From Synechococcus sp. PCC 7335 (lineage in GTDB: Bacteria > Cyanobacteriota > Cyanobacteriia > Phormidesmidales > Phormidesmidaceae), in contig NZ_DS989904.1 of assembly GCF_000155595.1 (NCBI RefSeq), forward strand, positions 3,738,786 to 3,802,785: a stretch of DNA of 64,000 bases, in the 5' to 3' direction. Position 1 is the first letter of the stretch, and every line of letters begins with the position of its first letter. This document shows, in pieces, positions 38,620 through 43,649 of the stretch. Position numbers and translations under genes: made by a program. Below the pieces are notes generated by a model. The model saw nothing but the letters and a program-made list of their open reading frames with translations. It was not told the origin of the DNA and ran no database searches.

Positions 38620-38754
38620 TCTGGACATCATTAGCGAACGCTTTCCACACACTCTCAAAATTCATGCCCTTCGATACTCTGTTGAAAGTATGTCTCAAAA
38701 TATGTCTCAGAATCGATTTCTCGAAAAGCCTAAGAGATTGTAAGACACGTTCCT

Positions 38755-38840
38755 ACTTAACGTTCCTGGTCAACGGTTGCCAAGATTTTTGCAACGCCAC
38801 AAGAGGCTTGGGTCGATCCGCTGCACCAGGGTTGTTAGCC
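38755..38840 (-). other. attC: Integron attC site 4 (end of cassette 4)
   Basis: 86-bp recombination site. Read in cassette direction (minus), it opens with GGCTAAC (38840-38834) and closes with GTTAAGT (38761-38755), a perfect GTTRRRY core. Between them, CCTGGT (38764-38769) pairs with ACCAGG with an extra G in one arm, the usual extrahelical base of attC. The opening core is the exact complement of the core at the cassette-4 start (GTTAGCC at 39853-39847). Confidence 0.88.
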
Positions 38841-38847
38841 TGCATGG

Positions 38848-39186
38848 CTAGTCTCCACTGATTTCTACTAATGTCTCGCCAGTAGCTAAAATTTTCAAAG
38901 CTTTAGGTAACGTCTCGCTCAGAATTTCGCGTAACTTCGCATTGGAGGTATTGCCACAAGTCAACCAAATAATTTGTGGCGGCGAACCCAACCGCTCGAC
39001 CAGATCCACAAAGTCGCTGTCTTTTGTCATCACAATAGCTTTTTGGTCTTTTGCAGCCTCAAAGATTTCAGGGTCTTCAGCATCTCTTAGCTCAAGATCG
39101 CGCAAGGCTATTGCTTTAAACCCAAACGTGCCGGTGATCCAAGTCGCTATTGCTGGAGACAGGTGTGCATCCACCCAAATAGTCAT
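38848..39186 (-). CDS. DUF5615 PIN-like toxin candidate (cassette 4)
   Basis: This 112-aa protein has acidic residues in PIN-like positions (VDAHLSP at the start, TKDSDFVDLVE in the middle) as in the DUF5615/Mut7-C family, which pairs with DUF433 as a predicted toxin-antitoxin system. It overlaps the DUF433 gene by 4 bp. It is the last gene before attC 4, so it moves with cassette 4. Nuclease activity is predicted only. Confidence 0.85.
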   Translation of the reverse strand: MTIWVDAHLSPAIATWITGTFGFKAIALRDLELRDAEDPEIFEAAKDQKAIVMTKDSDFVDLVERLGSPPQIIWLTCGNTSNAKLREILSETLPKALKILATGETLVEISGD

Positions 39187-39407
39187 GCCACTAAAACTGG
39201 ATGGTTAAGTTTCCGCGAAGCATACGAAAGTGACGCCTTCAAATCATCTGCTTCAAGATCGGGCATTTCCTCTAAAATCTCTCCTGCACTAAGACCTGCT
39301 GCGAACAGATCCAACACATCTGACACTCGGATCCTCATCCCTCGAATACAGGGGCGACCACCGCATTGCTTGGGGTTAATAGTAATTCTTTCAAGTAAGG
39401 ATGGCAT
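39183..39407 (-). CDS. DUF433 antitoxin (cassette 4)
   Basis: This 74-aa protein has the family signature RITINPKQCGGRPCIRGMRIRVSD followed by a small helix-turn-helix (DVLDLFAAGLSAGEILEEMP). DUF433 proteins are the antitoxin/regulator partners of DUF5615 proteins. It overlaps the toxin gene by 4 bp, indicating translational coupling. Confidence 0.88.
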   Translation of the reverse strand: MPSLLERITINPKQCGGRPCIRGMRIRVSDVLDLFAAGLSAGEILEEMPDLEADDLKASLSYASRKLNHPVLVA

Positions 39408-39760: not shown

Positions 39761-39846
39761 ACTCCATCCTCCATAGACAAGCTCAAAGTTTTAGTCTCAA
39801 TAGGAACGAATCAATGCTCCTAATCGAAAGAGTGCCTAGAATTGCA

Positions 39847-39932
39847 GGCTAACGGCTCAAATCAGCGGCGGCAGACAATCCCGAAACGGCATCAGTAGAT
39901 TTCATCCATCCGCTGCATTTGAATTGTTAGCT
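39847..39932 (-). other. attC: Integron attC site 3 (end of cassette 3)
   Basis: 86 bp. Read on minus, it opens with AGCTAAC (39932-39926) and closes with GTTAGCC (39853-39847). The arms TCAAATCAGCGG and CCGCTGCATTTGA pair with a single extrahelical G. AGCTAAC is the exact complement of GTTAGCT, the core at the cassette-3 start (40495-40489). Confidence 0.9.
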
Positions 39933-40361
39933 CTCTGGTAGCCAGTTTTCTGCCAAGACGACTTCTAGAGAGTATGGGCACACTTCTGGAAATGTCGAAA
40001 TTTCCATTCCCGTTTGCTTGGCAGCTTGACGACGGGCACGTTGATAACTCCCTTCAAGTTGCTCTACCGTATAGCTCCTTAGGCTAGGACTATCTTCAAT
40101 CGTCAATTCGATCTGAGTACGCGCATCAGTGATAGAGTCAAGCCAACTATCTGAGCGGCGCTGAGGTTGATATTGCCACTTGAGCAGATGCAGTAAAAGA
40201 CGAGTTAGCTGGCTAGCAATCCCTCGCCGTTCACTTTTTCCCAAATCTTCAACCTCTTCAATCAAATTTGGTACATCGATTTCATGCCAACGACGCTCAC
40301 GTAACAGTTGAGCTGTTTGGTTAATCCACGAACTAAAATCCGTTAAATATGTCTTGCTCAT
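39927..40361 (-). CDS. DUF29 domain protein (cassette 3)
   Basis: ATG 40361 (MSKTYLTDFSSWINQTA) is preferred to the extended frame. The 144-aa protein matches DUF29: RRWHEIDVPNLIEEVEDLGKSERR, LLLHLLKWQYQPQRR, LRSYTVEQLEGSYQRARR. DUF29 genes are abundant in cyanobacteria and have no established function. Its stop codon overlaps the first core of attC 3, as is common in cassettes. Confidence 0.9.
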   Translation of the reverse strand: MSKTYLTDFSSWINQTAQLLRERRWHEIDVPNLIEEVEDLGKSERRGIASQLTRLLLHLLKWQYQPQRRSDSWLDSITDARTQIELTIEDSPSLRSYTVEQLEGSYQRARRQAAKQTGMEISTFPEVCPYSLEVVLAENWLPES

Positions 40362-40488
40362 GTTCAACCTGACCTTTCGCAGTTGCAGCACCTACTTACG
40401 AAGCCTTGCACCTCAATAATAGCGCTCAAACTCGTAGACTTTACTGGGAAGTACAGATCCTCGAACTACTCCCTAAACCGTATATGAA

Positions 40489-40573
40489 AGCTAACGCCCT
40501 GTATCAGCGAAAGCAAAAATCAGTAGCGAGAGTAACGGGGCTTCTTGATTTTCGCTGAATGCTTTTGTTAGAC
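40489..40573 (-). other. attC: Integron attC site 2 (end of cassette 2)
   Basis: 85 bp. Read on minus, it opens with GTCTAAC (40573-40567), a perfect RYYYAAC, and closes with GTTAGCT (40495-40489). ATCAGCGAAA and the mirrored TTTTCGCTGA form the stem. GTCTAAC is complementary at 6 of 7 bases to GTTAGCC, the cassette-2 start core (41229-41223). Confidence 0.88.
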
Positions 40574-41191
40574 GATGGTTTCTACTGATTTCATGGGTAC
40601 GGTTTGCGCTACCAAGTGGGCAAACTCTTTGATTTCAGCGCTTGAGCACAGGCGAATAAACCGGATATGGTCCCATCGTGGATCTAAGTGGTATGCAAGC
40701 ATTCTTTGGCGTTTGGGCTGGTATTGAGTGAGAATCCACCACAACAAGGAATCTTCTTTACGCCAAACCATCAACTGCGGCCAGAACTTTTCATAGTTAG
40801 TTCCCCACAGCAATTCATTTGTTCGCCAGCGATGCCATGAGCGCTTGAGCACACGCCAAACTAACTGATAAAGAGGTAGGTCAAGCCATACGATTGTTTC
40901 AAGTCGAGGCCAAAAGACTTGTTGAGAAAACTTGGTATAAGAACCTGCGACTACCCAACTATCACCCACTGTAGCTTTTTGTATGCGTCGAATAAACTTG
41001 TCGGGATTAGTGTCGTTTAAGCTAACCCAATTCGGCTCCCAATTTAATGCATCTAATTCAACAAAAGACACATTCAATGAAGCAGCCAGCTGACTACCTA
41101 AAGTGCTCTTACCAGAGCAGCTATTGCCAGTAATTAAGATCCGCTGCCCAATAGTGTTGGCTTGAATAGCAGGACTATGCTTCTCTGTCAT
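40568..41191 (-). CDS. P-loop nucleotide kinase-like protein (cassette 2)
   Basis: This 207-aa protein has Walker A GNSCSGKSTLG near residue 17, then FVELDALNWEPNW, and a Trp/Arg-rich C-terminal half (VLKRSWHRWRTNELLW). This is the layout of the adenylate-kinase-like FlaR/topology-modulation group of small P-loop kinases. Substrate is unknown. Its stop lies within the first core of attC 2. Kinase-like genes occur in cassettes of other integrons, but no role is established. Confidence 0.8.
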   Translation of the reverse strand: MTEKHSPAIQANTIGQRILITGNSCSGKSTLGSQLAASLNVSFVELDALNWEPNWVSLNDTNPDKFIRRIQKATVGDSWVVAGSYTKFSQQVFWPRLETIVWLDLPLYQLVWRVLKRSWHRWRTNELLWGTNYEKFWPQLMVWRKEDSLLWWILTQYQPKRQRMLAYHLDPRWDHIRFIRLCSSAEIKEFAHLVAQTVPMKSVETIV

Positions 41192-41222
41192 TTTGTCATT
41201 TCAGAATCGAAGAACTTAACTC

Positions 41223-41309
41223 GGCTAACGTTCCCAATCACCCGCCGCAGATAATCTTGAATTCGAACAGATAACCTATCAACGGTCGGGTGCATTGGGG
41301 TTGTTATGC
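41223..41309 (-). other. attC: Integron attC site 1 (end of cassette 1)
   Basis: 87 bp. Read on minus, it opens with GCATAAC (41309-41303) and closes with GTTAGCC (41229-41223). CCCAATCACCCG pairs with CGGGTGCATTGGG, with one extrahelical G. GCATAAC is the exact complement of GTTATGC at 42416-42410, which places the start of cassette 1 there. Confidence 0.9.
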
Positions 41310-41320
41310 GGCGATCTCTA

Positions 41321-41752
41321 CTAACCTTTTGCTGGATAAAGTAAATGTTCGGGATCTAACCAAACAATATAAAAGACTTCATCAATAAGAAATCCATGAA
41401 CTCTACCGTGCTCGTTTGAAGAGAGGGAAAACTGGTAAGGAGTGTCTACCAACTGTTCCTCGTTCGGTAATCCAAACCCATTTTCGCTTGTATCTTCCCA
41501 TTTGATTGGATGGCATCGAAGAGAACTGCTACGATTCACTAATAGTTCTCGATTAGACAAACCTGATAAAGCCTTTAGGCGATCAATTAGCGTTAGCCAG
41601 TATATAGTTATTCTGTCATTACAATAAAACTTATCGTGTCCGTCTTGATAATACTTAAACGAAAAGCTGATGCCTTGCGGCTTCAGCTTTGTTGATTCAA
41701 TCCCAGATGTACTATTCTTCGGGATTTTAGTCTTCTTAATCTTCTTCGACAC
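41321..41752 (-). CDS. Candidate toxin paired with a Panacea antitoxin (cassette 1)
   Basis: This 143-aa protein starts at GTG 41752 and overlaps the upstream Panacea gene by 17 bp. The N-terminus is Lys/Thr-rich. The C-terminal half (FGLPNEEQLVDTPYQF, SSNEHGRVHGFLIDEVFYIVWLDP) ends with a strand-turn pattern reminiscent of RelE-like folds. No named family is recognised. Position downstream of a Panacea antitoxin in one cassette suggests a toxin. Confidence 0.6.
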   Translation of the reverse strand: MSKKIKKTKIPKNSTSGIESTKLKPQGISFSFKYYQDGHDKFYCNDRITIYWLTLIDRLKALSGLSNRELLVNRSSSLRCHPIKWEDTSENGFGLPNEEQLVDTPYQFSLSSNEHGRVHGFLIDEVFYIVWLDPEHLLYPAKG

Positions 41753-42182
41753 GTGCCCCGTAGTACTCCTTCATCCACTCTTTCTTGATGACTTCATTGG
41801 AAGACGCATCTGAGGGTAAATCTCCTCTAGCCCAGTCCCAGGGAGCTTCAGCATGAGTCATTTGCTCTAGCTCATAGGCATCACAAGCAAAGTACTCTTC
41901 CGCAACTTCGTCAAGGAATTGAAAAACATCTTCAGGAAGCTTAGGATCAGCGTCTTCCAGAATTGGTTGCCATCCAAAGGTCTTATACTTTTGATATAAA
42001 GATGGGATGACCGGTCCATGCACCCAAGCCTGAAAATCTTCTGCAAAGAGAGGATCGTCATAGAGTGCGATATGCCAAGCCTGAGCATAGTAAACAAGCT
42101 TTTGAAGCTTTAAGTTACTAATGAAGGAGCCAGTTTCGTTCGCTAGCCAAATAAAATAGTCTGCTATGTCAAAGCAGGACAT
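41736..42182 (-). CDS. Panacea-domain (DUF4065) antitoxin (cassette 1)
   Basis: ATG 42182 (MSCFDIADYFIW) is well placed after AAGGGGG; a GTG lies at 42194. The 148-aa protein matches Panacea/SocA: DIADYFIWLANETG, LKLQKLVYYAQAWHIALY, FQAWVHGPVIPSLY. Panacea proteins neutralise many unrelated toxins through protein binding (SocA also acts as a protease adaptor). It is first in cassette 1, nearest the integrase. Confidence 0.88.
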   Translation of the reverse strand: MSCFDIADYFIWLANETGSFISNLKLQKLVYYAQAWHIALYDDPLFAEDFQAWVHGPVIPSLYQKYKTFGWQPILEDADPKLPEDVFQFLDEVAEEYFACDAYELEQMTHAEAPWDWARGDLPSDASSNEVIKKEWMKEYYGARVEED

Positions 42183-42476
42183 CACTAAGCTCACCCCCTT
42201 AATTACAAAGCCCTGGAAAGACTCATAGGCTTACATACCCAGTTTATACAGTTCTTGCAGCAGAAGCTATGAGGAATTCCCCAGCCTCATAGTTTACTTG
42301 TACTATTATAAACTTTTGGCTAAGCAACTGCATAAAAAATTACCAAATTCCAGCAAGTTCACCTCGCCAACAAATTCCAACATGTGTCCCCGACAGGTAG
42401 CCTCAAGCCGCATAACTATATATTCAGTGTCAGATTTGCTGTATAACCTCCTTATCTAGGATCTTAAATGTCAAGG

Positions 42477-42516
42477 TTGACAGATAACTACCCTGTCCAC
42501 AGAAGTTATCTGTCAA
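42477..42516. repeat. Perfect 13-bp inverted repeat in the attI region
   Basis: TTGACAGATAACT at 42477-42489 and its exact complement at 42504-42516 flank a 14-base loop. The arms contain the core-like GTTATCT. It may be an integrase-binding or regulatory palindrome; no U-tract, so not an obvious terminator. Confidence 0.8.
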
Positions 42517-42535
42517 TTCTGCTGGATAAGTCCGT

Positions 42536-42581
42536 AGAAGTAGGGTGTTATTTATCACAGAAGTAGGGTGTTATTTATCAC
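42536..42581. repeat. Perfect 23-bp tandem duplication upstream of intI
   Basis: The 23-mer at 42536-42558 (AGAAGTAGGG...TTATCAC) is repeated without change at 42559-42581. Each unit holds GTTATTT, similar to the integron core GTTRRRY. Candidate direct repeats for integrase binding, as in attI1. Confidence 0.85.
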
Positions 42582-42671
42582 ATCTGAAGGTTTAAGTAGA
42601 GTATGCGGTGCTTATACAGCAAGTTTGCTGTGCAAGTGCCCAGATATTTGCTTATTACCACACTAAAAAGT

Positions 42672-42740
42672 ATGCCATGCCAGCAACCACCGCGCCTACT
42701 CGACTAGGTTAGGGAGGCAATCAGGCTGAAGCACTTTAGC
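42672..42740 (+). other. Upstream part of the intI frame with an amber codon
   Basis: From ATG 42672 the integrase frame reads MPCQQPPRLLD, then TAG (42705-42707), then [16 protein letters not shown] directly into the integrase. Homologous integrases have LLDQVR or VLDQLR at this place, so TAG stands where CAG (Gln) is expected. With a readthrough residue the protein would be 325 aa, the normal IntI length. Confidence 0.8.
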
Positions 42741-43649
42741 TTGTCAACGGAAAAGTCGTACGTCTACTACATCCGCGACTACATTCTTTTTCATAACAAG
42801 CAGCATCCAAAGAAGATGGGAGCCTCTGAGATCAGAGCATATCTATCGCATTTAGCGACCGTCCGCCATGTTGCAGCCTCGACCCAAACCGTCGCTCTCA
42901 GCGCTTTACTGTTTCTCTATCGCCAGGTTTTAGGGATAGAGCTGCCATACATAGACAACATCGAACGAGCGAAGCGGCCTCAGCGTCTGCCAGTTGTCTT
43001 TACTCGCTCTGAGGTGATGCGAATCCTAGCCAATCTAGATGGAATCAATCACCTGGTTGTTAGTCTTCTATACGGTACGGGCATGCGACTGATGGAGGGC
43101 TTACGATTGCGGGTAAAGGACATTGACTTTGAGTACCGCCACATTACGGTGCGAGATGGCAAGGGCAAAAAAGATCGCCATACGCTGCTGCCAGAATCTG
43201 TAATACAGCCACTTCAGCACCAGCTCAAGAAAGCCAAGCATCTGCATGAACAAGATTTGGCAGTGGGATACGGCACTGTAGAGCTGCCCTATGCGTTGGC
43301 ACGAAAATATCCTAGTGCGCACAAGGAGTGGAAATGGCAATTTGTGTTTCCTTCCGGGAAGCGGTCACTCGATCCAAGATCCAAAGTCGTTCGCAGGCAC
43401 CATTTGTATGAGCAATCTGTCCAACGCGCTGTAAAGAAAGCAATACAGAAAGCTGAAATCACTAAAAACGGAGGCTGTCATACATTGCGGCACAGCTTTG
43501 CAACTCACTTGCTCGAAGATGGCTACGATATCCGTACGGTACAAGAACTACTTGGACACAAGGATGTGAAAACAACGATGATTTACACTCATGTCTTGAA
43601 CAAAGGTGGACATGGTGTACAGAGTCCCCTGGACAAAGAGTTTGCATAA
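42741..43649 (+). CDS. intI: Integron integrase IntI (tyrosine recombinase), N-terminus interrupted
   Basis: The catalytic tyrosine-recombinase set is complete: Arg in [41 protein letters not shown] with the nucleophile Tyr. The IntI-specific insert ([24 protein letters not shown], then [15 protein letters not shown]) separates it from XerC/XerD and marks it as an integron integrase. The coordinates use TTG 42741 (302 aa); the full 325-aa frame from ATG 42672 has an amber codon. It is divergent from the cassettes, the standard integron orientation. Confidence 0.9.

Follow-up and report, generated by a model that had tools for sequence, protein, structure and literature searches.

The dif sites of the Xer system are built from 11-bp boxes that begin with TTAT and lie around a 6-bp centre, a geometry like that of the attI core; they have a single box pair, and to our knowledge lack a phased accessory array. 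In attI1, the recombination site of class 1 integrons, two accessory repeats (DR1 and DR2) are IntI1-binding sites that favour attI1 × attC recombination (PMC8946536, PMC8191803), and accessory repeats have been reported as absent from Vibrio cholerae attIA and from most other attI sites so far described (PMC8191803, PMC8946536).

We analysed a 64,000-nucleotide stretch of the genome of Synechococcus sp. PCC 7335 (hereafter, the window), in which a simple L/R site adjoins intI, as in attIA and most described attI sites. Unlike attIA, however, cyanobacterial chromosomal integrons carry accessory repeats in most of the loci that we sampled. The site shares with attI1 an AAC core, a 6-bp centre, an L box and a box spacing of about two helical turns; but whereas the accessory boxes of attI1 number just two and share one orientation, there are about ten here, of a different sequence and alternating in orientation, arranged in 40–42-bp units up to intI (Table 1). 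We consider it fairly probable that this region is an attI that continues into a helically phased row of accessory boxes to which integrase binds. A search of the open literature returned no account of such an array, although one may exist elsewhere.

Table 1. Features of the integron, in window coordinates.
Feature	Positions	Strand	Remarks
attC4	38750..38848	(-)	foldable
attC3	39842..39934	(-)	foldable
attC2	40485..40577	(-)	foldable
attC1	41222..41314	(-)	R'' GCATAAC, R' GTTAGCC; folds, R and L boxes paired
attI R box / crossover GTTATGC	42410..42416	(-)	cut G^TT; the 4 bases past GTT belong to cassette 1
attI simple-site centre	42417..42422	.	6 bp, TATATA
attI L box	42423..42433	(+)	TTCAGTGTCAG; opening element of the box array
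box f1	42436..42446	(-)	TTATACAGCAA; counterpart of the attI1 DR1 position
box r2	42464..42474	(+)	TTAAATGTCAA
box f2	42477..42487	(-)	TTATCTGTCAA; left arm of 13-bp inverted repeat
box r3	42506..42516	(+)	TTATCTGTCAA; right arm of 13-bp inverted repeat
box f3	42519..42529	(-)	TTATCCAGCAG
box r4	42548..42558	(+)	TTATTTATCAC; within 23-bp copy 1 (42536-42558)
23-bp copy 2	42559..42581	(+)	private tandem duplication (half linker + box r4); absent from relatives
box f4	42584..42594	(-)	TAAACCTTCAG; eroded, 4.0 bits
box r5	42612..42622	(+)	TTATACAGCAA
box f5	42625..42635	(-)	TTGCACAGCAA; eroded, 1.5 bits
box r6, expected place	42655..42665	(+)	lost, -6.6 bits
intI, integron integrase	42672..43649	(+)	ATG 42672; TIGR02249, 460 bits

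A preliminary description of this DNA had placed a candidate attI at 42409-42671 and had taken its crossover core, GTTATGC, to be set by complementarity with the first attC, and both proposals were borne out. The core reads TATATAG^TTATGC on the minus strand (with G at 42416), and there is a 10-bp complement between the start of cassette 1, GTTATGCGGC, and the R'' of attC1, GCCGCATAAC. The gene next to the site encodes an integron integrase, and on the minus strand four cassettes run leftward from the site, with four attC sites capable of folding. Relatives, which were gathered by IntI similarity (76–83% identity) and include Adonisia, Nodosilinea, Halomicronema, Phormidium and others, have in common the motif AACTAT[AG]TATT at the same place, on the strand reading toward intI. 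Because the next four bases, toward the cassette, vary between loci, and the cassette side is unrelated among relatives, this lineage-wide conservation stops at the crossover GTT, as it should in an attI. A simple score of attC complementarity was uninformative and was replaced by a test of R'' itself: in 23 of 39 loci, the core pairs with a cassette R'' ending in AAC at no fewer than 9 of 10 positions, compared with 44 of 377 swapped cores. Exact copies of the core were looked for in viral contigs, and none was found. By its sequence and setting, the site is a genuine attI.

The same description had singled out a perfect 13-bp inverted repeat and two exact 23-bp units, which it likened to the accessory integrase-binding direct repeats of attI1. 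Both are present: the inverted repeat occupies 42477-42489 and 42504-42516 around a 14-nt loop, and the 23-bp units, at 42536-42558 and 42559-42581, are identical. These two sites are the only occurrences of the 23-mer in the 64 kb, where other exact tandem duplications with periods of 15–59 bp do not exceed 16 bp and a single other locus has a perfect inverted repeat whose arms reach 13 bp or more around a loop of at most 20; neither element is therefore expected by chance. The tandem pair is absent from all relatives that were read. Moreover, the distance between the AAC of the crossover and the ATG of intI is 234–238 bp in seven close relatives versus 258 bp here, and since subtraction of 23 bp yields 235, the repeat is to be read as a recent duplication private to this genome. 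It supplies one extra box, about 2 bp off register, and a role for the tandem as a functional accessory repeat is ruled out both by its absence from relatives and by its equivalence to the excess length. The palindrome consists of boxes f2 and r3 facing each other across a linker, and the boxes that underlie it do occur in relatives. Thus, the idea of accessory repeats survives in spirit, with conserved units that are 11-bp boxes and not the 23-bp tandem.

Boxes of this kind, with the consensus TTATCCAGCAG, recur about every 21 bp from the L box to the start codon of intI, and as their orientation alternates, the array has a period of 42 bp; there are 10–11 of them. The attI L box is the first element of the array. 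Those of the window average 8.6 bits, against -5.8 ± 1.4 in shuffled sequence, and the ones proximal to intI are eroded. Units were compared by stacking them in the 42-bp register, MAFFT alignment of the whole region having misplaced them. Each consists of an imperfect version of the 24-bp palindrome TTATCCGTCAGATCTGACGGATAA and an 18-bp linker with CC...GG ends; T4 and A26 are invariant in all 35 of 35 units, and most loci keep the exact 42-bp register without indels. Across 18 clades, the offsets from the crossover are 9 (TTA), 29 (TAA), 49 (TTA) and 69 (TAA). No second copy of the array was found in the genome, and the region yielded no match to Rfam families and no sigma-70-like promoters or terminators. 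Variants of the array occur elsewhere: Leptolyngbya sp. Prado105 (L023), whose array lies apart from intI, has four near-identical 41-bp units in tandem upstream of that gene, which we interpret as a recent whole-unit expansion of the attI array, and LEGE 07170 (L003) has one unit fewer than its relatives and contains, inside the array, a perfect inverted repeat whose 30-bp arms flank a 4-nt loop.

Autocorrelation between the L box and intI peaks at a lag of 42 in all nine relatives tested from the closest clade (z 6.3–11.3) and, after removal of one 23-bp copy, in the window (z 3.7); for these scores and for the survey that follows, shuffles keep base composition only. Over a fixed 225 bp upstream of intI, the strongest period falls at 38–43 bp in 71 of 80 cyanobacterial leaders versus 13 of 79 non-cyanobacterial ones (Fisher p 2e-21, for loci that are not independent), the window, with a strongest lag of 23, being left out of the counts. 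The cyanobacterial loci comprise 27 of 28 from the order of the window, 21 of 25 from that of Calothrix and 23 of 27 others, and the remainder 3 of 24 from Gammaproteobacteria, 5 of 27 from Chloroflexota and 5 of 28 others, with about 11% expected by chance. These frequencies describe the present sample, whose loci were picked for their similarity to this IntI or for their family score. Within the 225 bp scanned, periodicity is missing from a few cyanobacterial loci, and strong exceptions outside the phylum are one gammaproteobacterial and three Chloroflexota loci. The latter (L156, L176 and L178) have a strong 40-bp period upstream of intI, which could reflect either horizontal transfer or an older origin. 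In a quick IntI tree with many weak forks, both large cyanobacterial groups include loci with the trait. A contig labelled Candidatus Gracilibacteria (L054), whose IntI falls inside the cyanobacterial group and which has a 40-bp array, probably comes from a cyanobacterium and was mis-binned.

The array keeps register with the attI L box, and it resembles that box in sequence: array boxes match the L box of their own locus at a mean of 9.06 of 13 positions, whereas pairings with L boxes of other lineages give 8.28 ± 0.13, and none of 20,000 permutations was as high. The kinship emerges from 19 clades taken together; locus by locus, and in the window too, it is weak or missing. When attI1, as recorded in a plasmid sequence, is measured in the same way, its L-box TTA lies at 9, the TAA of DR1 at 31 and the TAA of DR2 at 50, compared with 9, 29–30 and 49–51 in cyanobacteria, such that in both cases roughly two helical turns separate the first accessory box from the L box. 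The likeness to the attI1 repeats that had been proposed for this site hence extends to the spacing of the first box, and the sequence differs, as had been stated; but the boxes alternate and are not direct repeats, and DR2 is oriented opposite to the third cyanobacterial box.

From these sequence patterns, we infer IntI binding, autoregulation and an influence on recombination. Outside the L and R boxes of the crossover site, some ten L-box-like 11-bp elements, one per ~21 bp (two helical turns) and alternating up to the start codon of intI, would allow IntI monomers to load cooperatively on a single face of the DNA, starting at the core and proceeding outward, and to form a nucleoprotein tract. 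Such a tract could concentrate integrase at attI and favour attI × attC insertion. In this clade the intI leader lies under the array, so the tract might also restrain transcription of intI.

Alternatively, the array could serve a different protein that prefers the same boxes, or its main effect could be on transcription. That it is chiefly an operator, through which IntI (alone or with a host factor) represses or times intI and cassette-promoter transcription while contributing little to recombination directly, is rather unlikely, although it is the rival that we take most seriously: the last box lies only a few bp from the intI ATG in the clade of the window, and any intI promoter would consequently be in or beside the array. 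However, in another cyanobacterial clade (L019, L022, L023 and L030) some 100–150 bp of non-array leader separate the array from intI, no sigma-70-like promoter was found in the window, and both the L-box register and a geometry near-identical to that of attI1 DR1 point to recombination. If the boxes were bound by a host regulator or nucleoid protein in place of IntI, the 24-bp palindromic pairs, which look like dimeric operators, would be accounted for, but not the start of the array in L-box register or the way in which box sequence and attI L box change in step from lineage to lineage, and we regard this as improbable.

Still less credible is the view that the inverted repeats form hairpins, either in the intI mRNA leader or as extruded attC-like DNA. 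Strand folds do beat those of shuffled sequence (z -4.2 in the window and -4.9 in L006), but palindrome partners are alike at 4.31 of 8 positions and boxes from other units of the same locus at 4.56 of 8, which indicates that the arms do not co-vary, a pattern that would better fit independent protein sites. Hairpins, moreover, would not need units of a constant 42 bp, and comparison with Rfam gave no match. We attach equally little credence to a functionless minisatellite evolving neutrally: whole units have been gained or lost (arrays are shorter in L003 and L005, and L023 has its near-identical 41-bp copies) and the 23-bp duplication is private, but the old, roughly half-diverged units keep their invariant positions, orientation and period across cyanobacteria.

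In this genome, the proposed integrase-binding system appears to be decaying, as would be signalled by the private duplication with its one out-of-phase box, the eroded distal boxes and a nonsense codon near the start of intI. The codon, an in-frame TAG at 42705-42707, is codon 12, where every close relative has Gln (RLLDQVR), and the intact integrase of a functional integron is accordingly missing. The natural start is ATG 42672, and initiation at TTG 42741 would drop the first 23 codons. Outside codon 12, intI is intact and conserved, and relaxed selection on the remainder was rejected, as dN and lineage-specific changes match those of relatives, in a test made weak by the saturation of dS. 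Given that the remaining IntI is without extra decay, the TAG is probably a recent nonsense change, though it may be an assembly error. Together with the eroded intI-proximal boxes, it suggests that this copy of the integron was probably silenced recently. Inactivation of integrases is frequent in general, with an estimated 43–46% of homologues affected (PMC3108266).

Cassette 1 (41321-42194, minus strand) has a gene for an antitoxin-like protein with a SocA/Panacea domain and, after it, a small overlapping ORF with weak similarity to the MAG6450 family, possibly a toxin-antitoxin pair within one cassette, and in cassette 4 (38848-39407, minus strand) a DUF433 and DUF5615/PIN-like pair constitutes a VapBC-like toxin-antitoxin module adjoining attC4.

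The array provides a sequence handle for the annotation of attI in cyanobacteria and supplies countable elements for tests of binding, phasing and insertion. A regular array that tracks lineage beside most sampled cyanobacterial integrases would show long accessory arrays to be the norm across a phylum whose integrons are sedentary. More tentatively, and with somewhat less than even confidence, we propose that cyanobacterial chromosomal integrons have a phylum-wide form of attI, on which integrase would polymerise along a phased array of about ten boxes and so confer a built-in nucleoprotein or topological control of cassette insertion, the two direct repeats of attI1 being its small counterpart. 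If true, this would overturn the view of accessory repeats as rare and as having arisen with mobile integrons.
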